Assembly (NCBI RefSeq): GCF_900090275.1
Contig: NZ_LT607755.1
Coordinates: forward strand, 4,588,001-4,652,000
DNA length: 64,000 bases
Reading direction: 5' to 3'
From: Micromonospora zamorensis
GTDB lineage: Bacteria > Actinomycetota > Actinomycetes > Mycobacteriales > Micromonosporaceae
Both the position numbers and the translations under genes were made by a program. Shown in pieces: positions 50,400 through 64,000 of this stretch. Position 1 is the stretch's first letter, and the number at the start of each line of letters is the position of its first letter. The notes under the pieces are model-generated. The model saw only the letters and a list, made by a program, of their open reading frames with translations. It had not been told where the DNA came from and searched no databases.

Positions 50400-51629
50400 T
50401 CATACCCCTACTCCCATGTGCTCAGCCAACTCCGCTACCGGAGAAGGCGGCGCACCACGTGTGCGACGCAGGATGTCCGACATCACCTCGTGCGCGATCG
50501 GACGGCAACGGATCTCGGACGGAGCGAGTCGATCACCGAGCAGCAGCATCTCGCCGGCGTTCGCCACGTCGCCGATCTGGGCGTACCCGCGGGCGATGTC
50601 GAGCAGGTGGTGGGCGCGACGTTCGGGCAGCAGCGCGTTGAAGGAGGGCTCGGCGATGCGCAGCTGGTGCACCTCCACGGCCCGACCGCCGTCGCCCAGC
50701 TCCACCGCGGCGGCGGCCCGGTGCAGCTCGACATTCGTCGGGCCGAACGACGTCCAGTAGTGGTTGTGGTCGCCGCCGAGCAGGATGGCGGCCTCCTGCG
50801 CGCAGTTGATCAGGTCGTCGACGCTGGCCGTGTCACCGATGCGGGAGGCGGCCATCGCACCCTGGAGCAGCAGCATCCCGTAGACGGACAGCCGGGCCGG
50901 GGAGACCTCGTTGCTGCCGCCCGGTGCCAGCCGGTTGGCGATCTGGACGTTCAACTCCAGCGCGGGACGAGCCCGGCCCATCGCGACCAGGGCGGCGCAC
51001 ACCCGGGTGGTGGCGATCCCGGCCAGCAGCGGGTCGTTGGCCCGCTGGGCCACCGCCATCGACCGGTCGGCGGCCAGCCAGGCCAGCTCACACTCGCCGA
51101 GCTTGCGCAGCACCGACGAGGCGATCTGGTAGACCTGCCCGAGCAGGTGGGCCGCCTCGGGGGCCCGCTCACCGCCGTACGCGGCGTCGGCCGCCTGTGC
51201 GTCGCGCAGCAGCTTGGGCAGCGCCCGGGTGAGCATCCCGTAGCGGCCGTACTGGTAGGTGAGCCACGCGTGGTTGACGGCCTTGCGCATGTCGTCCAGC
51301 GGCGGCGGGGAGGGCGCCGCGTCGAAGTACGCGCTCATCGAGTCGTAGCGTTCCAGCGCCGCCCGGATCTCCTGCACCTCGATCTGGTCGATGCAGTTCA
51401 GCGCGTCGGTGCGGCGTTCCGGGTCCTTGCCCATGAGCAGTTGGACGTCCACCTGGAGGATGTCGGCGATCTCGTACAGGACGGAGAACTTGTCCAGTCG
51501 ACGAACGCCGCGTTCGACCTTGTCCACCCAGCTCTTCGACTTGCCGAGCCGGTCGGCGAAGACCTGCTGCGACATCTTGCGTCGCCCCCGCCAGTAGGCC
51601 ACTCGCCGTCCTATGGGTAGCTCGTCCAT
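50400..51629 (-). CDS. HTH-XRE regulator with TPR-like C-terminal domain
   Basis: 409 aa. An N-terminal XRE helix-turn-helix (about 5-65: YWRGRRKMSQQVFADRLGKSKSWVDKVERG) and a long helical-repeat part (about 110-400) with TPR-style pairs. This is the family of actinobacterial signal regulators that sense peptides or small molecules through the repeats. ATG at 51629 follows GGAGGA by 7 bases. Operon with the flavoprotein; divergent from a Prim-Pol-like gene. Confidence 0.9.
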   Translation of the reverse strand: MDELPIGRRVAYWRGRRKMSQQVFADRLGKSKSWVDKVERGVRRLDKFSVLYEIADILQVDVQLLMGKDPERRTDALNCIDQIEVQEIRAALERYDSMSAYFDAAPSPPPLDDMRKAVNHAWLTYQYGRYGMLTRALPKLLRDAQAADAAYGGERAPEAAHLLGQVYQIASSVLRKLGECELAWLAADRSMAVAQRANDPLLAGIATTRVCAALVAMGRARPALELNVQIANRLAPGGSNEVSPARLSVYGMLLLQGAMAASRIGDTASVDDLINCAQEAAILLGGDHNHYWTSFGPTNVELHRAAAAVELGDGGRAVEVHQLRIAEPSFNALLPERRAHHLLDIARGYAQIGDVANAGEMLLLGDRLAPSEIRCRPIAHEVMSDILRRTRGAPPSPVAELAEHMGVGV

Positions 51630-51877
51630 CTGCCCATCCTCCCCTGCCGCCCAGGACCCATTGAGTCGAGGCGATGTCCGCGGGTGCGGCGACTGTCGTT
51701 CACTTTCAGGTTTTCGCTGGTCGCACACGATGTACGTCAGCCGTACAGCCAGTCCTCGTACTTTTCGTGCAAGTTGCACGAGCCGTTCGTCAACCTCAAC
51801 GATCGTGGGTTACGGCAGTGACGGTGCTCGACATGCGACCTGGCGACCGCCGGGCCAGAAGAGGGGAGATGGCACAC

Positions 51878-52549
51878 ATGTGGGGAAATGTCGCACCGCG
51901 CGTGGCCGAACTGTCGCCGCTGGAACGGGTCCGGCTGCGCCGGGTCGCCATGCGGTACGCCGCACACGGCTGGGAGGTGACCCCGGGTGCCTGCCTGGCC
52001 CGCAGTCGCTTCGTCTGCGGCCGGGCCGGCTGTCCCACAGTGGGCTGCCACCCCGCCCTGGAGAACTGGGAGCTGGCTGCCAGCGCCGACCCGGCCCGGG
52101 TGGCGACCTGGTGGCGCAGTCGCCCGCACGGGGTGCTGCTGCCCACCGGCCGGGCCTTCGACGTGCTGGAGGTGCCCGCCCACCTCGGCCGGCACGTGCT
52201 CGACGCGGTGCAGATCCACCCCGCCGGCACCGGCGTACGCGGGCCGGTGCTGGTCACTCCCACCGGGCGGTGGATGTTCCTGGTCCGCCCCGGCGACCCG
52301 CTCCGACCGGAGCTGGAGCACTGCTTCCACGTGGTCCGGCACGGCCCCGGCTCGTGGATCCCCGCGCCGCCGACCCGGCTGCCCGAGGGCACTGTCCGCT
52401 GGGCGGTCGCCCCCGAGCAGGCCCGCTGGCAACTCCCGGATTCGTACCTGGTGCAGAACACGTTGATCGGGGCGCTGCGCGCCACCGGGGTGACGCTCAC
52501 CCCCGACCTGCTCCCCGGTCACCTGCCCCTGCCCCGACGAGGCATGTGA
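51878..52549 (+). CDS. Bifunctional DNA primase/polymerase-like (Prim-Pol) protein
   Basis: 223 aa. VAMRYAAHGWEVTPGACL is the usual Prim-Pol opening; FDVLEV replaces the DxD catalytic strand, so polymerase activity is doubtful. A cysteine cluster (C-X7-C-X4-C-X4-C, around residues 40-60) may hold a zinc. Family members in actinobacteria sit beside HTH-TPR regulators and DUF397 genes, with unknown roles. ATG 51878 has GAGGGGAG 9 bases upstream; ATG 51869 is in frame but too close to it. Confidence 0.8.
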   Translation: MWGNVAPRVAELSPLERVRLRRVAMRYAAHGWEVTPGACLARSRFVCGRAGCPTVGCHPALENWELAASADPARVATWWRSRPHGVLLPTGRAFDVLEVPAHLGRHVLDAVQIHPAGTGVRGPVLVTPTGRWMFLVRPGDPLRPELEHCFHVVRHGPGSWIPAPPTRLPEGTVRWAVAPEQARWQLPDSYLVQNTLIGALRATGVTLTPDLLPGHLPLPRRGM

Positions 52550-52654: not shown

Positions 52655-52816
52655 ATGTCCACGGACGACAGAGCCTCTCATCCCGGCGGCACCGAGCCGC
52701 CCCGGCGCAACCACCCACGACACCGCTGGGCCGGCACCCGACCGTCCGGCTCGCGCCCCGGCCGCCCACGCCCCACCGGGTCCCGCCCGGCCGGCACCCA
52801 CCGCCCGGTCCGCTAG
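52655..52816 (+). CDS. Possible 53-aa Arg/Pro-rich protein
   Basis: ATG at 52655 has GGGGGAAC just upstream. The product is STDDRASHPGGTEPP followed by Arg/Pro-rich text (RPGRPRPTGSRPAGTH), disordered. The stop overlaps the ApbE gene's stop by 3 bases on the other strand. No homology known; could be non-coding. Confidence 0.35.
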   Translation: MSTDDRASHPGGTEPPRRNHPRHRWAGTRPSGSRPGRPRPTGSRPAGTHRPVR

Positions 52817-53586
52817 TCGGTCAGCGGGATGGCGGCGGAGTAGTACTGGCGGCCGTCGTCGGTGACGACGGCGTGGGTGTGGCCGTCGTCCAGACGGTCC
52901 AGCCAGCCCAGCCCGGTGGTCCCCATGGCCAGGGCGGCGGTGGCGTACGCGTCGGCCACCCCCAGGTCGGTGCCGACCACGGTCACCGAGCGCAACCCGC
53001 TGGCCGGCGCGCCCCGACGCGGGTCCAGCACGTGCCGGCCCCTCTCGTAGACGCCGGACGTTGCCACGGCCAGGTCGGTCCCGGTGAGCACCAGGCAGGT
53101 CGACATCGCGTCCCACGGGTGCCGGATGCCGATCCGCCAGGGCTCCCCCGACGGCGAGAGACCCCGTACGCGCACGTCACCGCCGGCGTTCACGCAGTGG
53201 TTCGCGGCACCGGCGGCGAGCAGGCGATCCGAGGCGACCTGGGCCGCCCAGCCCTTGACGAAACCGGACGGGTCGAGCCGCCCGGTGGCGTACGCGTCGA
53301 AGAACCCGTCGGTGGCGCCCCACAGGTCGGCGCAGGCCTCCAGCACGAACCGCAGATCCGCGGACGCCTCGGAGAGCAGCACCTCACCCCGGTCGAAGCG
53401 GCACACCTCGCTGTCCGGCTTGTAGGTGCTGAACCGGGCGTCCACCTCACGCATCCAGGCGAAGACCTCGTCCGCAAGCTCGCGGAGGGTCGCCGGTGGC
53501 AGGTCGTCGGCGAGATCCAGGGTGATCGCCGTACCCATGATCTGTTCGACCCGGCACAGCCCGGGTCGGGTCAGCGCGGCCGGCAC
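52813..53586 (-). CDS. apbE: FAD:protein FMN transferase
   Basis: 257 aa. ApbE attaches FMN to a Ser/Thr of exported proteins. Motifs: MGTAITLDL, FSTYKPDSEVCRF, DPSGFVKGWAAQ, CVNAGGDVRVRG and VATSGVYERGRHVLDP, the last holding the metal and FMN-phosphate sites. No signal peptide or lipobox is clear from the GTG at 53586, 1 base after the FMN-binding protein gene. It is the last gene of the five-gene operon and should flavinylate the protein just before it. Confidence 0.93.
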   Translation of the reverse strand: MPAALTRPGLCRVEQIMGTAITLDLADDLPPATLRELADEVFAWMREVDARFSTYKPDSEVCRFDRGEVLLSEASADLRFVLEACADLWGATDGFFDAYATGRLDPSGFVKGWAAQVASDRLLAAGAANHCVNAGGDVRVRGLSPSGEPWRIGIRHPWDAMSTCLVLTGTDLAVATSGVYERGRHVLDPRRGAPASGLRSVTVVGTDLGVADAYATAALAMGTTGLGWLDRLDDGHTHAVVTDDGRQYYSAAIPLTD

Positions 53587-53587
53587 G

Positions 53588-54205
53588 TCAGAATGCCTGC
53601 TCGATGGCGGACCGCAGGGACTGCTTGTAGGCGTTGCTGGTCTCGGTGGCGCCGGAGACGGTGTTGAGATTGGCGCTCTGCTTCTGCACCACCTCGCCGC
53701 CGGTGCCGTCGTAGCGGTTGCTGACGTCGCCGCTGTGGATGTCGGACTCACCCCCGGTGGGCAGCGACAGTGCGACGGCCTCGATGATCCGGTTACCGGA
53801 GACCACGATCTGCACCTGCACGGACCCGTAGATCTCGCGGTCGTTCTTCGCGTCGAAGGGGGCGCCGGTGACCCGGCGGGTGGTCGACTGGGGCGCCTTG
53901 GTGGTGGTCCGCGGAGCGCTGGGGGCCTTCGTCGTCCTGGTGGCCGACGGGCGGGCGGTGGTCTTGCCGGGTTTGGGCGACGTCGACGGCCCGGCGCTGG
54001 CCGACGACGAAGGCGCTACGCCCGCCGGATCGGCACCCGGTGCGTCCGGGGCGGCGCTGGGATCGGTGCCCGGCCCGGCGGGGTTGACCGGCTGGGCGGT
54101 CGGCAGGTTCTGGGCGACCGGGGTGGCGCTCGTCGAGCCCTTGAACACCACCAGCGCGGTGGTGCTGGCGGCCAGACCGGTGATCGCGAGGAACGCGCGA
54201 CGCAT
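53588..54205 (-). CDS. Exported FMN-binding domain protein (ApbE substrate)
   Basis: 205 aa. A signal or anchor at 1-25 (RRAFLAITGLAASTTALVVF), a long Ser/Thr/Pro/Ala linker (about 28-110), then an FMN-binding domain whose SGATETSNAYKQSL carries the Thr that ApbE normally loads with FMN. ATG at 54205 follows AGGAGA by 9 bases. It is the likely electron carrier outside the membrane, fed by the ferric-reductase-like protein encoded just upstream. Confidence 0.92.
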   Translation of the reverse strand: MRRAFLAITGLAASTTALVVFKGSTSATPVAQNLPTAQPVNPAGPGTDPSAAPDAPGADPAGVAPSSSASAGPSTSPKPGKTTARPSATRTTKAPSAPRTTTKAPQSTTRRVTGAPFDAKNDREIYGSVQVQIVVSGNRIIEAVALSLPTGGESDIHSGDVSNRYDGTGGEVVQKQSANLNTVSGATETSNAYKQSLRSAIEQAF

Positions 54206-54217
54206 GGGATGCCTCTC

Positions 54218-55636
54218 CTACAACTCGAACGTGGCCAGGTGGATCTGCCGTCGGGGCACGCCGGCTCGGCGCAGCGCGCGCACCGACTGTTCCACCAGCC
54301 CGGGTGGCCCGCACAGGTAGACGTCGCGCCGGGCCACGTCGGGCACCAGCTGACGCAACCCGTCCGGGCTCATCAACTGACGGGGGCCGGGGTCGTCGCG
54401 GGAGCCGATGACGTACCAGACGGAGGTGTCCCGCTCCTGGGCCAGCCAGTCCAGCTCACGGCTGAGCAGCACGTCGGCCGGGGTACTCGCGCGGTAGATC
54501 AGGGCCGCACCCGGAGGCAGCTCCTCCAGCATGGCCCGGATGGGGGTGATGCCGCTGCCGCCGGCGATCAGCAGGGCCCGTTCGCGGACCCGGTGCGCGG
54601 CGGTGAAGGTACCCGACGGACCTTCGGCCCAGACCCGGGTGCCCGGCTCCAGGTCGCGCAGGTCGGCGGTGTGGGTGCCGACCACCTTGACGGTGACCCG
54701 CAGCCAGCGGCCGTTGGTGGCGGCCGAGACGGAGAACGGGTGCGACTGCCACCAGCAGCCCCGGGTGAGGAACCGCCACCGGAAGTGCTGGCCGCCGAGC
54801 ATCGCCAGCCGGCCGAGCCGCTCCCCGGTGAGGTAGACGGAAATGGTGTCCGGGCTCTCGGCGACCACGTCGGCGACCCGCAGCTTGTAGCGCAGGTTGA
54901 ACGCCAGCGGCGCGATCACGCGACCCCAGAGCAGGGCGGCGACCACCAGCAGGTAGAGCGCGATCCAGCCGGTGCGCACCGGGCCGGGCCGGTACAGCTG
55001 CGCGCCGTGGGTGAACTGGTGGCCGAAGCCGAGCAGCAGCACCAGATAGCTGGACAGGTGCAGCAGGTGCCACATCTCGTAGGGCAACGCCCGCCGGATC
55101 GCCCGGATGCTGCTGAACCCGACCAGCATCATGATGCCGGCGGCGACGAACGCCGAGACCATGTCCTCGTACTCGCCGAGCAACGTGCCGACCTCGGCGA
55201 GGACCGACTGCTTACGCAGGTCGGCGTAGCCGACGAGGATCAGCGACACGTGCGCCAGCACGGTGACCAGCAGGGTGGCACCGATGTCCCGGTGCCAGCG
55301 TGCCGTCTGCTCGCCGCCGATCCACCGTTCCAGCACCGGCAGTCGGCTCATCATCAGCACCTGCACCAGCAGCAGGTAACCGGCGATCAGACCGGAGATC
55401 CGACCCGCCGCCGTGACGGTCGCCGCGGTGGTCTTCAACGAGCCGGCGGACGTGCCCAGCCACCACGGCAGCACGCTGGCGACCAGGCCGACCAGGAGCA
55501 GCACGCCCAGCAGCCGCCGGCCGCCGGGTCCGCGCCGGTCCGGGATCTGCGGGGGTACGGGCGCAGCCGACCGGCCGCCGTGCCGGGACGAAGTCCCGGT
55601 ACGACGGCCGGCGGCGTGGGTGTGCGGGTACGTCAC
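54218..55636 (-). CDS. Ferric-reductase-like membrane flavoprotein (NOX/FRE type)
   Basis: 472 aa. About six to seven membrane segments (45-235) contain histidines for haem (ARWHRDIGA, LAHVSLI, MWHLLHLSSY, GFGHQFTHG). A cytoplasmic FAD/NAD domain has SHPFSVSAA (FAD), GGSGITPIRAMLEE (NAD) and LCGPPGLVEQ. It should pass electrons from NAD(P)H through FAD and haem to the outside. GTG 55636 overlaps the DUF1501 stop by 4 bases (GTGA). Confidence 0.93.
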   Translation of the reverse strand: MTYPHTHAAGRRTGTSSRHGGRSAAPVPPQIPDRRGPGGRRLLGVLLLVGLVASVLPWWLGTSAGSLKTTAATVTAAGRISGLIAGYLLLVQVLMMSRLPVLERWIGGEQTARWHRDIGATLLVTVLAHVSLILVGYADLRKQSVLAEVGTLLGEYEDMVSAFVAAGIMMLVGFSSIRAIRRALPYEMWHLLHLSSYLVLLLGFGHQFTHGAQLYRPGPVRTGWIALYLLVVAALLWGRVIAPLAFNLRYKLRVADVVAESPDTISVYLTGERLGRLAMLGGQHFRWRFLTRGCWWQSHPFSVSAATNGRWLRVTVKVVGTHTADLRDLEPGTRVWAEGPSGTFTAAHRVRERALLIAGGSGITPIRAMLEELPPGAALIYRASTPADVLLSRELDWLAQERDTSVWYVIGSRDDPGPRQLMSPDGLRQLVPDVARRDVYLCGPPGLVEQSVRALRRAGVPRRQIHLATFEL

Positions 55637-57027
55637 GCGTACAGCTTCATCGGGGCGTACTTCTGGCGGGGGAAGACCTTCTCGACCTCCGCGTTCGTGA
55701 GCCCGAACCGGCCCTGAGCCACAGCGCCGTAGACGTTGAACATGTTGTTGTACTCCGGCACGTCACCGGAATCCAGCTTGTCGAGGCCGTTCCAGGTGCC
55801 GAGCAGCGAGCCTGCCAGCTTCTTGCCGGACAGCACTGTGACAACCCCGCCGTGCCCGTGGTCGGTGCCGCCGGTGTTGGAGCCGACCCGACGGCCGAAC
55901 TCGCTGGACACCATGATCGTCACGTCGGCGGCCTGCGGGCCGAGGTCGGTGAAGAACGCGGCCATGGCACTGGCCAGGTCGTTCAACCGGCGGTGCAGTT
56001 GGCCGCCCGCACTGGTGCCCTGGTTCTCGTGGGTGTCGTAGCCACCCATGCCGACGGTGGCGACCCGGACGTTGGCGCCGCCCTTGATCAGCTGGGCGAG
56101 CTGCTTGAACGCGTTGCCGACGCCCTCGTACGTGACGCCCTCGACGGGCTGGTACGGCTTGGCGGCGAGCTTCTGGGCGGTGGCCAACGCGCCCATGCCC
56201 TCCTGCACGGCTTCCTCGACCGGGTGGTTGATCCCGGTGAACAGCCCCTTGATGGCCTTCTCGGTGGCGGCCCGGAACCGCTCGTCACCGTTGAGCCGCA
56301 ACGATCCGATGCTGTTCAGCGAGATCGCGCCGTTGTTGCCGACCAGCGAGCGGGGCAGGGTGCTGCCGATGCCGACGCTGCGGAACGCGGTGCCCTTGCC
56401 CAGGTTGTCGACCAGACCGTCCAGCCAACCGCGACCGCCGGTCTCGTTGGGCAGCCCGCCCAGGTTGCAGGCGTCCGCGGCCTGGAAGTGGCTGCGCGAC
56501 AGCCGCTCGTCCGAGACCGCCGGGATGAAGCCCAACTGGCCGGCGCCGAGCCACTTCTCCAACGGCTTGAACGCGCTGGTCAGCTTGAAGCCGCGGCCCA
56601 GGGCCAGCGAATCGTTGCCGAGCAGCAGGTCGGGGCGGGCCTTGGCGAGCACCGGGTCGTTGTCCGGTGCGATCAGGCTCAGCCCGTCCAGCCCGCCGTA
56701 GAGGAAGACGTGGATCAGGGTACCCGTCTTGGTCGCCGCGAACGACGCCGATGTGGTGACGAACTGGGCGGTGGCCAGGGCGGTGGCGGTGGCCGCGGCA
56801 CCGGCGACGAAGGTACGCCGGGTGACGCCACGACCGTCCTGCTGGGCCTCCTCCAGGTTCTCCAGGGTGCGGTAGCGGTCGAGCTCCGCGGCGTTCTCGG
56901 CGGCGACGATGTCCGCCTCCGCGCGCAGCAACGCCTCGGCCGGGTTGTCGGCCAGCCGGCGCACGTCGGGGCATTCGGGGTGCAGGGGGAAAGAGTTGTA
57001 CACAGTCTTCTCCATCGGGTGCCTCAC
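55633..57027 (-). CDS. DUF1501 family protein, Tat-exported
   Basis: 464 aa. A Tat signal begins near residue 66: VTRRTFVAGAAATATALA. The body holds the alkaline-phosphatase-like DUF1501 fold: VFLYGGLDGLSLIAP, GYDTHENQG, SSEFGRRVGSN and TDHGHGG, metal-binding Asp/His residues in the last two. The enzymatic activity is unknown. GTG 57027 overlaps the DUF1800 stop by 4 bases; ATG 57015 is an alternative. Confidence 0.9.
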   Translation of the reverse strand: MRHPMEKTVYNSFPLHPECPDVRRLADNPAEALLRAEADIVAAENAAELDRYRTLENLEEAQQDGRGVTRRTFVAGAAATATALATAQFVTTSASFAATKTGTLIHVFLYGGLDGLSLIAPDNDPVLAKARPDLLLGNDSLALGRGFKLTSAFKPLEKWLGAGQLGFIPAVSDERLSRSHFQAADACNLGGLPNETGGRGWLDGLVDNLGKGTAFRSVGIGSTLPRSLVGNNGAISLNSIGSLRLNGDERFRAATEKAIKGLFTGINHPVEEAVQEGMGALATAQKLAAKPYQPVEGVTYEGVGNAFKQLAQLIKGGANVRVATVGMGGYDTHENQGTSAGGQLHRRLNDLASAMAAFFTDLGPQAADVTIMVSSEFGRRVGSNTGGTDHGHGGVVTVLSGKKLAGSLLGTWNGLDKLDSGDVPEYNNMFNVYGAVAQGRFGLTNAEVEKVFPRQKYAPMKLYA

Positions 57028-59123
57028 CGGAGGTGGTGCTGGGGGGAAGCGAGGATCGCCCGCGCGACGGCGGTGATGGCCCCGTTGAACGTGGCGTCGA
57101 CCTTGGCGGTCGCCGGCACGCCGGCCACGCCGAGGATCAGATTCTTTTCCCGCGTGCTCAGCTTCTGACCCACCAGCCGCTGGGAGAGCGCGTCCACGTA
57201 CGCCCCGGCGGTGGCCGGCGGCTTGGCGACCAGCTTCTCCGGCGCCGTGTACGTGAAGGCGGTGCGGTAGCCGGCGAGGACCTCGCCCGCCTCGTTCCAG
57301 CCGTTGACCATGGTGCCGGCCGACGTCCAGGCGACGTAGACGTCCGGGTAGCCGTCCGGGGTGGGATGACCCATCGGGTAGTGGCCCAGCTCGCGCAGCT
57401 TGTCGTGGATCTGCCGCAGGCCGCGGGCGTACGGGGTGCGCTTGCTGTCACCGTTGTTGTGCTTCGGCGACGCGTCCGGCGAGACACCCAGGGTGCGGTA
57501 CGTGGCGACCAGGTACTCCATCGGCCGGCGCACCTTCTGGCCCACGCCGGCCCAGAACTCGGAGGAGCAGAACATCGCCATCAGCACGGGCTTGATCAGG
57601 CCGTTGTTGGTGATGTAGATCTTGGCCAGCCGGTCCACCAGGGACTTCGGCGGGGTGTCCGAGACGAAGCGGGTCGCCAGGCTCTGCGCGACGTACTTCG
57701 CGGTCGACGGGTGCAGCGCGATGTACGTGATGTACGCGTCGATCGCCGCGTCGGCCTTCTTCGGGTCCGTCGAGTTGTTCGCGTGGGTGAAGCCGAGGAT
57801 CTTCACCTTGCCGACGTAGTGCTGCTCGGGCTTGAAGACGTACTTGCCGTCCTTGTCGATGCCGCGGCCGGTCTGGAGCATGGCCGCCTGGCGCACGTCC
57901 GGCTCCTTGTAGCCGCCGTCGACGCCCACCGAGTAGAGCTCGAGGTTCTCCCGGGCGAGGTTCTCGTTGATCGCGTCCTTGCGGGAGTCCTTCTGGTTCA
58001 GGTAGATCAGCAGCGCGGGGTGCTTGTTCGCGGCGACCAGCATCTCCGGGTAGCTGCCCAGCGCGTGCTTGCGCACCACGTCCTGGTCGAACGAGTTGCG
58101 GTACACCTCGCCACCGTCGAAGTCGGCGGCGACGTGCAGGAAGTCGTTCCAGAAGTCGACCATCACCTCGAACAGTTGGCGCTTCGACCAGATCTGCCGG
58201 GCGATGGTGGCGTCGATCATCTCCCGTTCCGGCTGGGCGCCCTGCTCGTTGAGCTGGTCCCGCTGGGTGCGCAACTGCTGCACGTTGAGCTTCTGGGTCG
58301 GCAGCTCGGCGAGCTTCAGCTCGGCCTTGCTCGGCGCGATCTTCTCCGGGTCCATCTGGGCGCGGATCCAGGCGTCGATGCCCTGGTTCTTGATGTCGGC
58401 GATCACCGCGGGCGTCGGCCCGAAGGTGGTCCGCCGGGCCAGGTGCAGGATCGGATCCTTGGCCAGCACCGTCTTCACTGTCACCTGGGTCGCCGCGGCG
58501 GCGGCGGCCGGCCCGGAGAAGCTCCGTCCACCGGCCGGCGCGTTCTTCTTCAGCGCCTCGCCGGCCCGGGAGCCCATGTAGCTTTCGTTCTGCTCGGTGT
58601 AGGTACGCACCGTGCTGGGCTGCTGGCCACTGGGCCGCGCCGCGGTGCCGTCGGTCACCGTGCTGCCGGTGGCGTCACCGGCCGCCGCCTCGTCACCGAA
58701 GAGGCCGCGGATCTGCGGGGTCATGGCGAGCGCCGCACCACCGGCGACGACGGCGGCGGTGCCGCCGAGAGCCACCATGGCCTTGCGCCGGCCGACCTTG
58801 CGGCCCGGCTCGTCGTCATCGTCCAGGGTGGGCAGTCCGCTGCCGGCGGGCCGCGCCGGGGCCGGGCGTCCGAGCCCTTCCGGGCCGACCCACTGCGGCC
58901 CGCGCGGGGCGGGGGCGGGGTGCCCGGCGGGCGGGTAAGCCTCGCCGTACTGCTCGCGCGGGTCGGCCTGCGCCGGGTAGCCGCCCTGGTAGGGGTGGGG
59001 CGAGTCGTACCCGTAGGGCGCGGGCGTGTTGGGGTCGCCGTAACCGTCCGCGTTGTGGTGCTGGCGTCCGTCCCAACCGCGGTCGTCCCGCGGTCGACGT
59101 GGTGGCACATTCTGGTCGGCCAT
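57024..59123 (-). CDS. DUF1800 family protein with Pro/Gly-rich N-terminus
   Basis: 699 aa. Residues 1-110 are a disordered Pro/Tyr/Gly tract; a membrane anchor or Tat-like segment follows (GRRKAMVALGGTAAVVAGGAALAM). The DUF1800 domain (about 220-690) has LARRTTFGP at its start, MVDFWNDFLHV, NENLARENLELYSVG and the late LVATYRTLG. DUF1800 and DUF1501 genes almost always come in pairs; both are exported and uncharacterised. ATG at 59123. First gene of the operon. Confidence 0.9.
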   Translation of the reverse strand: MADQNVPPRRPRDDRGWDGRQHHNADGYGDPNTPAPYGYDSPHPYQGGYPAQADPREQYGEAYPPAGHPAPAPRGPQWVGPEGLGRPAPARPAGSGLPTLDDDDEPGRKVGRRKAMVALGGTAAVVAGGAALAMTPQIRGLFGDEAAAGDATGSTVTDGTAARPSGQQPSTVRTYTEQNESYMGSRAGEALKKNAPAGGRSFSGPAAAAAATQVTVKTVLAKDPILHLARRTTFGPTPAVIADIKNQGIDAWIRAQMDPEKIAPSKAELKLAELPTQKLNVQQLRTQRDQLNEQGAQPEREMIDATIARQIWSKRQLFEVMVDFWNDFLHVAADFDGGEVYRNSFDQDVVRKHALGSYPEMLVAANKHPALLIYLNQKDSRKDAINENLARENLELYSVGVDGGYKEPDVRQAAMLQTGRGIDKDGKYVFKPEQHYVGKVKILGFTHANNSTDPKKADAAIDAYITYIALHPSTAKYVAQSLATRFVSDTPPKSLVDRLAKIYITNNGLIKPVLMAMFCSSEFWAGVGQKVRRPMEYLVATYRTLGVSPDASPKHNNGDSKRTPYARGLRQIHDKLRELGHYPMGHPTPDGYPDVYVAWTSAGTMVNGWNEAGEVLAGYRTAFTYTAPEKLVAKPPATAGAYVDALSQRLVGQKLSTREKNLILGVAGVPATAKVDATFNGAITAVARAILASPQHHLR

Positions 59124-59554
59124 GTACCAATCCCGATTTCTGATGAGCGCCGGAAGCTGCGACCGGACAGGTGCGGCAGGTGCGGCGACTGTTGCCTGAG
59201 GGGGTTGCTACGGCAAGGTAACCAAGGCCCCATGGGCCTTCAAGGTGGGTCGAACACCATCGTGAGGGCACTTAAGACAGCGCTCAGTACGACGTCGGCG
59301 ACCAATGTCTGACCGGGCACCGGCGCGGACCTCCCCAGCAGGGCGTACGCGCGGCAGCCGGGCACGGAACGGACCACGCGGCAGTACGCGACACTTTCCG
59401 CGCCGTTCACCACCACAGACAAACTTAAGGTTCAGATAAGCCGGACATGAGGTGCCCTCACGTGGAGGAAAAGTAGCAGCGGCGGTCGAGCGTGAGCCGC
59501 CACCGCAGCGGGTATGCCGCCGAACCGCTGAACGCGTGAGGGGAAGGCAGCGCC
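59124..59554. other. Divergent control region, nothing else certain
   Basis: 431 bases between two divergent genes. It holds a 7-bp-armed dyad AAGGCCC-CAT-GGGCCTT (59224-59240) and A+T-richer stretches near 59405-59450 that may carry promoters. No gene or further repeat is seen. Confidence 0.5.
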
Positions 59555-59812
59555 ATGCTCAGCAAAGAGGATCAGCGCAGGTTCGACCAGATCACCCGTC
59601 AGCTCCGGGAGAGTGACCCGGCCTTCTTCGCCCGGCTGGACCACCGGGTCCGGGCCCGCAGGGGCCGCTATCTGATGTTGTTGACCATCGTGCTGTGGGC
59701 GTCGCTGCCGGCGATCGCCGTGTTCGCCGGTCGGATGACCGGTGCGATCTGCGCGGTGGTGCTCGTGGTCAACGCCGCGATCATGTGGCGGTTCCGCCGC
59801 CGCTGGACGTGA
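59555..59812 (+). CDS. DUF3040 small membrane protein
   Basis: 85 aa. MLSKEDQRRFDQITRQLRESDPAF is the typical DUF3040 head, followed by two membrane segments (LMLLTIVLWASLPAIAVFAG and ICAVVLVVNAAIMW). Function unknown. ATG at 59555 follows GAGGGGAAGG. Convergent with the SWIM gene 4 bases later. Confidence 0.88.
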   Translation: MLSKEDQRRFDQITRQLRESDPAFFARLDHRVRARRGRYLMLLTIVLWASLPAIAVFAGRMTGAICAVVLVVNAAIMWRFRRRWT

Positions 59813-59816
59813 CGGC

Positions 59817-60725
59817 TCACCGCTCACCCGGGCCGAACGCCCGGTACGCGCGGCGCAGCCGTTCGAGCAGTCCCGGCCCGCCGATGGCCGGGGCTGGCGC
59901 CCCGAGCTGGCGTAGCAGCAGGTCGGGACCGGTCGCCAGTCGCGGCGGCCGATCAGGCAACGGCACCGGCGGCAGCCAGAACCGGTCTGCCGCCTCCGGT
60001 AGCGGCGTCGTCGACAGCCCGGCGAGCGCGCGGGCCGCGCCGACCGGGGCCGCGACGTCCACTGTCGACTTGTCAGTGTCCGGTTCGGACACCGCGAGGA
60101 CCGGCTGGGGCTGTGGGGCGGCGCCGGTGGCCTGCACCCGACGGGCGCGCAGCTCGGCGAGCAGCTCGGCGCGGGACCGTCCGCGCCAGTGCAGCAGCTC
60201 GAACGGGTCCGCGTCGAAGGCCTCGGCCAGCAGATAGAACGTCGCTGCGAGGTGCTTGCACGGCACCGCGAAGTCGGGGCAGTTGCACCGCTGGGTCAGC
60301 TCGTCCACGGCGGCCGGGAAGAGCGGCGCGCCAGCGGCGACGAACAGCTCCTCCAGCTCGTCGGGGAGGTCCCCGGCGAGCAGCCGGGCGCTGAAGAACG
60401 CCTGCCCGGCCAACTCCTCCTCGATTCGGGACCAGAGCGCCGCCGGGAACGGCCGCAGCGCGATGGACACCTGGTACGGCTGCGGCCGGGAGCCCTGCAC
60501 CACCGCGCTGACCAGCCCGGGTGTGATGTCGAGCGAGAGCACCTGACCGGCCCGCGCGTACGACCGGCCGCGGGTCAACCGGGTGCCGAGCGCGAACGAC
60601 TCCAGCACCTCCAGGAAACGCCGGGACCACCAGGACCGGCCGATCGCGCCCCGGGCGCTGCGCGCCCGCAGACCCCCGTCGACCTTGCGAGGGCGGCCGT
60701 AGTCGGCGAACCTGTCGGTGCTCAC
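59817..60725 (-). CDS. SWIM zinc-finger protein
   Basis: 302 aa. The SWIM motif is CNCPDFAVPCKHLAATFYLLAEAF (CxC...CxH) at about residues 145-168; it binds zinc and nucleic acid or protein. The C-terminal part is Pro/Ala-rich and disordered. GTG 60725 has AGGGAAG 7 bases upstream; GTG 60746 also fits and overlaps the helicase stop by one base. It is coupled to the SNF2 helicase, and the two probably act as a unit. Confidence 0.9.
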   Translation of the reverse strand: MSTDRFADYGRPRKVDGGLRARSARGAIGRSWWSRRFLEVLESFALGTRLTRGRSYARAGQVLSLDITPGLVSAVVQGSRPQPYQVSIALRPFPAALWSRIEEELAGQAFFSARLLAGDLPDELEELFVAAGAPLFPAAVDELTQRCNCPDFAVPCKHLAATFYLLAEAFDADPFELLHWRGRSRAELLAELRARRVQATGAAPQPQPVLAVSEPDTDKSTVDVAAPVGAARALAGLSTTPLPEAADRFWLPPVPLPDRPPRLATGPDLLLRQLGAPAPAIGGPGLLERLRRAYRAFGPGER

Positions 60726-60745
60726 GCCAGAGCTTCCCTCGCTCA

Positions 60746-63700
60746 CTACTCCACCACCGCCCCGGCCTCCAGGGCGAACAGCTCGCGCAACTGGCCGGTG
60801 GACAGCTCGGTGATCCACTGCTCGCCGGTGCCCACCACCCGCTGGGCGAGGGCACGCTTGTCGGCGATCATCGCGGCGACCTTCTCCTCCACAGTGCCGG
60901 CGCAGACGAACTTGCGAACCTGCACCCGTCGGCGCTGCCCGATCCGGAACGCCCGGTCGGTGGCCTGGTCCTCCACCGCCGGGTTCCACCACCGGTCCAC
61001 GTGCACCACGTGGTTGGCGGCGGTCAGGGTGAGCCCGGTGCCACCGGCCTTGAGGGAGAGGACGAACAGCGGTGGGCCGTCCGCCGACTGGAAGCGCTGC
61101 ACCATGGCGTCCCGCTCGGCCTTACCGAGGCCGCCGTGCAGGAACAGCACCTCCCGGCCGAAGCGCGCCGACAGGTGACCGCGCAGCATCGCCCCGAACT
61201 CGGCGTACTGCGTGAACAGCAACGCCCGCTCCCCCGCCGCCAGCACCTCCTCCACGATCTCGGTCAGCCGGGAAAGCTTGCCGGAGCGGCCCTCCAGCGC
61301 CGAACCGTCGCGGAGCAACTGCGCCGGGTGGTTGCAGACCTGCTTGAGCCGGGTCATGGTGGCCAGCACCAGGCCACGTCGCTCGATGCCGTCGCTGGTC
61401 TCGATCCGGGTGAGCATGTCGTCGACCACCACCCGGTACAGGGCTGCCTGCTCGGCGGTGAGGTTGCAGAGAACCTCCATCTCCAGCTTCTCCGGCAGGT
61501 CCGAGATGATCGACGAGTCGGTCTTGAGTCGGCGCAACACGAACGGGCCGGTGATCCGGCGCAGCCGCTCGGCGGCCTCGGCGTCGCCGTGCCGCTCGAT
61601 CGGCTCGGCGAACCGCTTGCGGAACGTCGCCGCCGGCCCGAGCAGACCCGGGTTGGCGAACTGCATGATCGACCACAGGTCGGCGAGCCGGTTCTCCACC
61701 GGCGTACCGGTCACCGCCACCCGCTGCCGGGCCGGCAGCGCGCGGACCGCCTCGGCCTGCCGGGTCGACGCGTTCTTGATGGCCTGCGCCTCGTCCACCA
61801 CCACCCGGTGCCAGTCGATGCCGGCCAGGTCGACGGCGTCGCGGGCCGCCACCGAGTAGGTGGTGAGAACCAGGTCCGCGCCGTGCGCTGCCGCGGTGAA
61901 CTCTGCCCCCCGCGCCCGCTCCGCCCCGTGGTGTACGTGCACACGCAGCGTCGGCGTGAACCGTGCCGCCTCCCGCTGCCAGTTGCCGACCAGCGACATC
62001 GGACAGACCAGCAGGGTCGGGCCGGCCTCCGGTGGGTCCCCGGCGAGCAACGCGAGCAGTTGGACGGTCTTGCCCAGCCCCATGTCGTCGGCGAGCACAC
62101 CACCCAGCCCGAGCGAGCGCAGGAAGGCCAGCCACGCCAACCCACGCTGCTGGTACGGCCGCAGCGTTCCCACGAAGCTCGGCGGCGGATCCAACGGGGT
62201 GAGCCGGCGCTCGACCGCACCGGCGAGCAGGTCGCCGAGCGCCCCGTCGGCGCTCACCTCCAGCACCGGTAGCGCCCCGGTGGCCTCGCCGTCGGCCAGC
62301 CCCAGGCGGAGCAGGTCGGCGACGGTCAACTCACCCGCGGAACGGAGCAGGCGCAGACCGGCGGCGAGCCGCCCCGGGTCCAGCTCCACCCACCGGCCGC
62401 GCAGCCGCACCAGCGGGGTCTTCAACTCGGCCAGCGTCGCCAACTCGTCGGCGGACAGCGGATGGTCACCGAGGGCGACCTCCCAGCGGTAGTCGACCAG
62501 GGCGTCCAGACCGACGCCGGCTTCGGTGCCACCCACAGTGCCGGGCGCGGTGCGACTGCGGGCACGCAACCGGGCGCCGAGCCGCGCCGACGGGCGCTGC
62601 CACCAGGACGGCAGCAGCACCCCGAAACCGGCCGCGTGCAGCACCGGAGCGCCCTCGCTGAGAAACCGGTGCGCCCCCTCGACGTCGAGGTCCATCGCCT
62701 CCGGGGCGGCGGTCCGCAGCGCGGCGTCCAGATCCGGCCAGAGCCGGCTGGCCCGCCCCAGCTCGGCGAGCAGCGTCTCCTGCGGGCTGGTCGTCCGACC
62801 GGCCAGGCCGCCGAGCGTCTGCGGCGCCCGCCAGACCTGCCCGGCGTCGACGTGCAGGCCGGGTTCGTCGGCGGCCTGCAACCCGAACTCCAACCGCCAG
62901 CGCCCACCGCCGGTCGGCTCGACCGACGCCGGGACGACGTCGGTCGGCGCCGGGCGGGTGGCCAGGATCGGTTCGGTGACCTCGTCGGGGGCCGGTTCCA
63001 CCAGCCGGAAACTGGCTCGCACCGGGCCGCCCGCGGCGTCGCGCTGCCAGTTGTCCAGCTCGTCGCGCAGGGTGGCCAACGCGGTCGGGTCGACGGTGAA
63101 GTCGCGCCGGGGGCCGGCGAGCGCGGCCAACCACGCCGGTGCCGGGCCACCCGGCCGCAGCCCACGCGCCAGGGTGGTGGTCGCCAGAGCGGCCCGCGCG
63201 GCGGCGTCGGTCAGCGCGTCCAGCGCATCCGCTACCACGTCGGCAGCGGTCAGCTCACCATCACCCGGGCCGGTGGTCCCGGTGGTGGTGACGGCTCGGG
63301 TGGCTGGTGGCAGGGCCAGTGCCAGCGAACGGGCCCATGCGGCGTCGGTGCCGGTCAGCAGGGGACGCCAGACCGCCAGCGCCGGCACCTGCGCCCCGGC
63401 TTCCAACGGCGCTTCGGCGGCCGACCGCGTTTCGGCGGCTGACGGTGTGCTCGGCTCCGTCGTGCGGACGCCGGGGAGGACACGGCCACGGGTCACCAGG
63501 TCGGCGGCGAAGTCAGCCAGCTCGGCGAGGTGACGCAGGGTGGCCCCGGGCACCGCCGGGAGTTCGTCCAGGGCGCGCAGGAGCGGCAGCGCGTCGTCCG
63601 GGGCGTACACCAGCACGGGGACCCGCCACCCGGCCAGGGTGAGCCGGCCGCGGGTCGGGGGTGCGACGGCGGTCCGGATCAGCTCGGGTGAGTCGGTCGG

Positions 63701-63934
63701 CGCGCCGGCCCGGGTGGGCAGGGTGAGCAGCGCGGTGTCCGGGCGGGCGGGCTCGGCGGCGTCGGCGAGGACGGCGACCAGGTCGGTGTGCCCGGCGGCG
63801 AAGGGATGCGGGCGTTCCCGGGGTGACCGACCGGAACGGGTCGGTGCGGAAGGCGCGGCGCTGTCCTCGGCCCAGACGGCGAGACCGCCGGTTGGGCTGT
63901 CGCCGGGCAGCCACAGCCCGTGGATGACCAGCAC
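60746..63934 (-). CDS. SNF2-family DNA translocase/helicase
   Basis: 1062 aa. An N-terminal about 550-residue region with a start typical of actinobacterial members (VLVIHGLWLP) precedes two RecA-like lobes: DDMGLGKT (about 617) as Walker A, VVVDEAQAIKN (DEAQ) near 715, TGTPVENRLADLWSI, and GGTGLTLTAANHVVHVDRWW near 965 with DRAFRIGQRR. It uses ATP to move on DNA and remodel protein-DNA complexes. GTG 63934 has GGGGGAG upstream. The window ends 66 bases further. Confidence 0.93.
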   Translation of the reverse strand: MLVIHGLWLPGDSPTGGLAVWAEDSAAPSAPTRSGRSPRERPHPFAAGHTDLVAVLADAAEPARPDTALLTLPTRAGAPTDSPELIRTAVAPPTRGRLTLAGWRVPVLVYAPDDALPLLRALDELPAVPGATLRHLAELADFAADLVTRGRVLPGVRTTEPSTPSAAETRSAAEAPLEAGAQVPALAVWRPLLTGTDAAWARSLALALPPATRAVTTTGTTGPGDGELTAADVVADALDALTDAAARAALATTTLARGLRPGGPAPAWLAALAGPRRDFTVDPTALATLRDELDNWQRDAAGGPVRASFRLVEPAPDEVTEPILATRPAPTDVVPASVEPTGGGRWRLEFGLQAADEPGLHVDAGQVWRAPQTLGGLAGRTTSPQETLLAELGRASRLWPDLDAALRTAAPEAMDLDVEGAHRFLSEGAPVLHAAGFGVLLPSWWQRPSARLGARLRARSRTAPGTVGGTEAGVGLDALVDYRWEVALGDHPLSADELATLAELKTPLVRLRGRWVELDPGRLAAGLRLLRSAGELTVADLLRLGLADGEATGALPVLEVSADGALGDLLAGAVERRLTPLDPPPSFVGTLRPYQQRGLAWLAFLRSLGLGGVLADDMGLGKTVQLLALLAGDPPEAGPTLLVCPMSLVGNWQREAARFTPTLRVHVHHGAERARGAEFTAAAHGADLVLTTYSVAARDAVDLAGIDWHRVVVDEAQAIKNASTRQAEAVRALPARQRVAVTGTPVENRLADLWSIMQFANPGLLGPAATFRKRFAEPIERHGDAEAAERLRRITGPFVLRRLKTDSSIISDLPEKLEMEVLCNLTAEQAALYRVVVDDMLTRIETSDGIERRGLVLATMTRLKQVCNHPAQLLRDGSALEGRSGKLSRLTEIVEEVLAAGERALLFTQYAEFGAMLRGHLSARFGREVLFLHGGLGKAERDAMVQRFQSADGPPLFVLSLKAGGTGLTLTAANHVVHVDRWWNPAVEDQATDRAFRIGQRRRVQVRKFVCAGTVEEKVAAMIADKRALAQRVVGTGEQWITELSTGQLRELFALEAGAVVE

Positions 63935-64000
63935 CTGCTCCCCCTCGTCGCCGCCCGCGCCCAGGATAGGCGGCCCCCTGCGGGTCCGGCGCATCCCACC

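Follow-up and report, generated by a model that had tools for sequence, protein, structure and literature searches.

A DUF1800/DUF1501 pair and an MsrQ-like flavin trio share one conserved leader in Micromonospora

The genome of Micromonospora zamorensis, a single contig of 7.10 Mb, harbours a run of five minus-strand genes in the 64,000-nucleotide stretch that we analysed (hereafter called the window; G000:C1:4588001-4652000). A DUF1800 and a DUF1501 gene come first, followed by genes for a ferric-reductase-like membrane protein (FRE), a flavin mononucleotide (FMN)-binding protein (FMN_bind) and the flavin transferase ApbE. What joins two proteins without assigned function to a flavin electron chain, and do the two halves work together? 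We show here that the join is old and not a matter of chance, and we propose that the five genes probably form one co-expressed cell-envelope operon made of two separable modules. The type of flavin chain is known; its junction with the DUF1800/DUF1501 pair under one leader distinguishes it from the described clusters.

The five open frames code for the DUF1800 protein (57024-59123; 699 residues, Pfam score of 380 bits), the DUF1501 protein (55633-57027; 464 residues, 69 bits), the MsrQ-like FRE (54218-55636; 472 residues, with Ferric_reduct at 52, FAD_binding_8 at 25 and NAD_binding_1 at 39 bits), FMN_bind (53588-54205; 205 residues, 25 bits for a cut-off of 22) and ApbE (52813-53586; 257 residues, 153 bits). 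All five proteins exceed the curated Pfam cut-offs; in NCBIfam, DUF1800, DUF1501 and FMN_bind have no match, and those of FRE and ApbE are far below cut-off. A mechanical open reading frame (ORF) list starts ApbE at 53751, inside FMN_bind; we adopted the GTG at 53586, which agrees with the 1-base gap between the two genes. The DUF1800/DUF1501 and DUF1501/FRE junctions are GTGA overlaps, and 12 bases separate FRE from FMN_bind. The first-pass annotation, made from the DNA alone, had placed genes and junctions exactly so, and had concluded that the five must be co-translated; we infer as much, with support from the conserved GTGA overlap, without the necessity. Among the matches listed, the closest named relative of the DUF1800 protein is that of Micromonospora chokoriensis (95% across the region searched).

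In order to determine how widely this arrangement is conserved, we used a family sample of 200 genomes, an order sample of 121 and a phylum sample of 326. The close DUF1501 subtype (at least 522 bits, among the matches listed) is found in 52 family-sample genomes, and in 39 of them, from seven genera (26 in the own genus, 6 in g269, 3 in g262 and 1 each in g288, g255, g266 and g289), an FRE match lies at most 204 bases from the DUF1501 gene. We read the gene order in the DNA of 33 of these 39 genomes and matched all five genes in order in 30, 25 of the own genus and 5 of other genera; in one of the 30 (G564), the best DUF1800 match spans residues 1-497 only. The three exceptions are a locus cut by a contig end (G499), one with no ApbE match (G469) and that of G435, described below. 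All five genes are in order in G446, in which the usual flanking genes are absent. In named genomes searched with a Kitasatospora DUF1501 query, the five genes occur in order at 54 of 61 loci, 6 others being cut by contig ends and the last being a remote Brevifollis match; this count presupposes the presence of DUF1501, and some genomes are shared with the family-sample set. The conserved five-gene order suggested by the first-pass annotation is thus borne out, and chance adjacency in a single genome is ruled out by the conservation across the family sample and the named loci. The DUF1800 and FRE matches of G435 (L058) are in several pieces and ApbE is undetected, which may reflect a decaying operon or assembly errors.

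The picture differs in the order sample. By visual comparison of coordinates, FMN_bind lies within 5 kb of DUF1800 in 10/10 own-genus genomes with DUF1800 and is adjacent to it in none of the 38 DUF1800-containing genomes outside the genus, 23 of which carry FMN_bind elsewhere or anywhere in the genome. A scan of 15 neighbourhoods fetched outside the genus, one of them of only 3.5 kb, detected neither FRE nor FMN_bind nor ApbE. The first-pass annotation had regarded the link as chance should the two sets of genes never be adjacent in most relatives; they are adjacent in most genomes with the subtype in the family, and this does not extend to the order sample outside the genus. As for mere co-occurrence, FMN_bind is present in 33/48 order-sample genomes with DUF1800 vs 23/73 without (23/38 vs 23/72 minus the own genus); such counts ignore kinship, and we put no weight on them. 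Outside the genus, 26 phylum-sample genomes have DUF1800, 4 of which also have FMN_bind (G208, G303, G322 and G344); one of their six FMN_bind matches is among the matches listed (G322), and it is on another contig than DUF1800.

The two halves are also separable. In the own genus, the operon sits between a divergent HTH/PrimPol pair (window 50400-52549) and a SWIM + SNF2 pair (59817-63994), and these flanks keep their place in genomes that lost it. Of 38 own-genus genomes in the family sample, 26 have both modules, 5 have the trio without the whole pair (G597, G588, G611, G561 and G579, the latter with a split FRE) and 7 have neither, all 7 with an empty site between the flanks. Two genomes of other genera (G063 and G451) likewise have the trio without the whole pair. 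Conversely, the pair has no FRE match beside it, among the matches listed, in 13 genomes (6 of g282 and 7 of g295), and no trio gene was found in the four pair neighbourhoods fetched from these. In two fetched g282 genomes the pair stands beside PrimPol/HTH without the trio; in seven g295 genomes, from which we fetched one FRE locus and two pair loci, the listed FRE match is elsewhere than the pair. Adjacency of pair and trio is therefore not obligate. On trees of the flanking proteins (SNF2, 39 of 46 rows; HTH, 43 of 46 rows; well-supported branches counted), the state with neither module requires at least 5 changes for SNF2 and at least 3 for HTH, and the trio-only state at least 3 and at least 5, respectively. 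On the SNF2 tree, the genomes with neither module are scattered nearly as shuffled labels would be (124/500 as low). We also noted, in the interval that separates the operon from the SWIM gene, a plus-strand frame of 85 residues (59555-59812). It is divergent from DUF1800, contains hydrophobic stretches and may resemble DUF3040 proteins.

Might the two modules then be unrelated, sharing an address and a promoter by operon hitch-hiking without any common process? Each half persists alone, in seven trio-only genomes and in the 13 genomes with the pair described above, FMN_bind is not found near DUF1800 in the order sample outside the genus, and M. zamorensis itself carries a second, diverged DUF1800-DUF1501 pair (G000:C1:6959277-6961741; L035) with no flavin genes beside it. 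This reading must nevertheless contend with the retention of order and coupling in seven genera, in one case amid other flanking genes, and of a conserved leader, and with the joint absence of both modules from the same address in seven own-genus genomes, through at least 5 and at least 3 changes on the two trees. We consider it a serious possibility, albeit a rather unlikely one.

The leader, taken as the 260 bases before DUF1800 in five-gene loci or before FRE in trio-only loci, provides further evidence for the single operon of two modules. In the window it contains a conserved element, GTCTTAAGTGC (59268..59278, minus strand), a candidate operator or activator site, followed by a predicted Sigma-70-like promoter, TTGAAG - 17 nt - TACCTT (59215..59243, minus strand). 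CTTAAG is present in 29/29 five-gene leaders vs 26/2000 mononucleotide shuffles, a loose promoter pattern (CTTG - 16 to 22 nt - TA[ACT][CT][TGA]T) in 29/29 vs 15/2000, and a stricter one in 24/29 vs 1/2000, all patterns having been written after the alignment had been seen. In the own genome, we counted one exact GYCTTAAGTGC against two copies of its backward control, which by itself gives no enrichment. A second CTTAAG (CCTTAAGTTT) is located at window positions 59421-59430, some 150 bases upstream of the first, and similar CTTAAGTTTCGC copies are found in L070 and L101.

A similar leader, as judged by eye, precedes DUF1800 at six pair loci without an adjacent trio (L063, L064, L065, L066, L045 and L046), and L061 has CTTAAG only; no such leader was seen upstream of DUF1800 in L049, L062 or L035, or upstream of the FRE that L074 carries separately. 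Because pairs without the trio have a similar leader, we read the promoter as that of the pair. The leader is retained before FRE in five of the seven trio-only genomes: CTTAAG is found in three of these leaders and TTTAAG in a fourth, the same four harbouring the loose promoter (L067, L068, L069 and L071), and in L070 CTTAAG lies approximately 700-800 bases upstream and precedes a DUF1800-like start (MADEHAPPR). The other two, L072 and L073, have neither CTTAAG nor the loose promoter. Since a pair-type leader remains before FRE after loss of the pair, the flavin genes seem to be driven by the pair's promoter. Remnants of the coupling are visible as well: L067-L069 have a 12-codon ORF starting with MADQ, as DUF1800 does, with a terminal GTGA overlap onto FRE, a 19-codon counterpart in L071 likewise overlaps FRE by GTGA, and the genomes of L072 and L073 (G561 and G579) have kept the last DUF1501 codons and their GTGA overlap with FRE. 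In our reading, the pair was lost repeatedly while the coupling and mostly the promoter were kept; for L071 the history may be the opposite, the pair having been inserted into a leader ORF.

The trio corresponds to the MsrQ-like clusters of Meheust et al. 2021 (PMC8238504), which are broadly conserved across Actinobacteria, with 1797 clusters counted in 1468 genomes. Such clusters typically encode ApbE and an FMN-binding protein together with a PF01794 protein, which often carries PF00175 at its C-terminus. The FRE in the window similarly combines Ferric_reduct (PF01794; 52.4 bits, cut-off 28), as a transmembrane, putatively two-haem domain, with FAD-binding and C-terminal NAD(P)-binding domains (PF00175; 39.2 bits, cut-off 22), and its gene shares one cluster with those of FMN_bind and ApbE. 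Its membrane His residues 115, 129, 193 and 206, each kept at 97% or more over an alignment of 41 relatives, are predicted to form two haem sites. Thus, the flavin chain recognized by the first-pass annotation is supported, and its suggestion of a wholly undescribed redox system does not hold for this half. Unlike the described clusters, this one has DUF1800 and DUF1501 upstream under one leader, an ApbE without visible signal peptide and an FMN_bind with an Arg-Arg signal. Neither DUF name appears in the main text of PMC8238504 (its supplement being outside the search), and our literature search yielded no report combining Micromonospora with flavinylation.

FMN_bind carries an SGAT motif with Thr187, and its 40 relatives all have [ST]xA[ST], 36 of them in the form [ST]GA[ST]. 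All 40 also have Arg2-Arg3 ahead of a hydrophobic stretch (the window's protein starts MRRAFL..), a putative signal that may make the protein exported or membrane-anchored. A signal-like start was found in none of 38 ApbE relatives, taking for each the start codon nearest to that chosen in the window, although longer N-termini are possible. FMN is thus probably attached in the cytosol, ahead of export of FMN_bind by twin-arginine translocation (Tat). According to a 2025 ApbE review, cytosolic ApbEs exist beside secreted ones; the main text of that review does not mention 'Tat'. The trio might also be an assimilatory iron reductase, the pair being accessory to the release of iron or phosphate at the surface. 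The VIT1 iron transporter genes present in 153 MsrQ-like clusters (PMC8238504) and the predicted phosphatase-type fold of DUF1501 are consistent with this proposal, which we nonetheless regard as improbable, as no transporter was found among the scanned flanks (HTH, PrimPol, SWIM and SNF2; the frame at 59555-59812 was outside the scan).

The DUF1800-DUF1501 pair is a separate, widespread pair without assigned function; within the literature searched, 4 papers mention DUF1800, 10 mention DUF1501 and 2 mention both. The DUF1800 protein comprises a Pro-rich disordered N-terminus, Arg-Arg at positions 112-113, invariant in 16 sequences, followed by a hydrophobic segment, and an all-helical DUF1800 domain (residues 227-696) whose AlphaFold core has a predicted local distance difference test (pLDDT) score mostly above 85. 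DUF1501 is extended at the N-terminus by just under 70 residues, which precede a putative export signal with an invariant Arg-Arg (70-71) and then a domain whose structure model has the alkaline-phosphatase-superfamily fold. The Arg-Arg export signals and the phosphatase-like fold had both been anticipated in the first-pass annotation. The Pfam TAT_signal match of DUF1501 is at 11 bits, under its cut-off of 22.7, and none is listed for DUF1800. The likeness of DUF1501 to the superfamily, which we take to include PafA, NPP and sulfatases, resides in the fold, identity to the two members compared being only 12-14%; its conserved Asp, His and Ser residues, identified at the sequence level, are candidates for the two-metal ligand set and the nucleophile. 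In proteobacteria, the two genes were predicted to be in one operon, with a twin-arginine motif in DUF1501 (PMC5122149). The Micromonospora pair shares these predicted traits but has other partners, a flavin chain in place of the chitin synthase and sugar epimerase found there. To look for hints of function, we scanned ten proteins encoded next to the pair elsewhere, among them a penicillin-binding protein, a radical SAM protein, an enoyl-CoA hydratase, a fatty acid hydroxylase, pentapeptide repeats, a LuxR-type regulator, GLTT repeats, an amylase and one protein without match. No common theme emerged except a multicopper oxidase (Cu-oxidase_2/_3) directly upstream of the pair, on the same strand, in two of three fetched loci of the subtype in family f13 (L046:6592-8352 and L049:6122-8401, both on the plus strand).

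Could the five proteins rather form an integrated redox enzyme, in which the reduced FMN protein feeds electrons to DUF1501/DUF1800, for instance to keep a metal (Fe) or a Cys reduced? DUF1501 has a candidate in Cys187, eight residues past the invariant Ser179, which is present in 8/8 close members (at least 59% identity to that of the window) and 0/12 others aligning there, and is invariant in the 44 sequences of our DUF1501 alignment A4. Three putatively exported proteins with Arg-Arg signals in one operon and the multicopper oxidase of the two f13 genomes would also fit. Nevertheless, Cys187 is also found at loci that have no trio next to the pair (L063, L065, L045, L046 and L049), and the trio outlives the loss of the pair, which makes an integrated enzyme quite unlikely in our view. 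The first-pass annotation saw the DUF proteins as possible users or suppliers of the electrons; we find no direct support for this, the trio having persisted in seven genomes with a deleted or broken pair and the pair standing elsewhere without the trio.

Under the favoured reading of one operon with two separable modules, NAD(P)H would reduce the FAD bound to the cytosolic portion of FRE, and electrons would pass the membrane over two haems b to the covalent FMN of the exported FMN_bind, loaded beforehand by ApbE. In the second module, DUF1501 would be an exported protein akin to metallo-hydrolases and would have DUF1800 as its partner, each of them bearing a Tat-like Arg-Arg signal. The flavin genes would have come under the control of the pair's promoter in some ancestor belonging to the family, and both modules would since have been made under the same condition, probably for the same envelope process, neither needing the other. 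Several points weigh against this scheme. There is no enrichment of FMN_bind in DUF1800 genomes of the phylum sample (6/28 vs 99/298), as hitch-hiking would also have it. The strict promoter pattern is matched in none of the pair loci without trio and in 0/7 trio-only leaders, so that the wider conservation of the leader relies on visual inspection and on the looser pattern. The score of FMN_bind is barely above the family cut-off, and SQAT or SDAT replaces SGAT in two relatives each (L044, L102, L097 and L100). Finally, even if pair and trio were transcribed together, that would fall short of proving that they serve one process. A facultative functional link between the halves is plausible.

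A more speculative idea, to which we give very little credence, is that DUF1501/DUF1800 of the Cys187 subfamily form a redox-gated surface hydrolase, whose active-site metal or Cys187 would be kept reduced by the flavin chain, or by another redox partner where the trio is not adjacent. If so, the NAD(P)H state of the cell would determine whether a phospho- or sulfo-substrate at the surface is hydrolysed, and elsewhere the partner would be an unlinked flavin chain or the multicopper oxidase of the f13 genomes. More generally, the conserved Micromonospora operon offers a defined context for testing the widespread DUF1800 and DUF1501 proteins, with ready comparison strains in which natural deletions have spared the promoter and the translational coupling.

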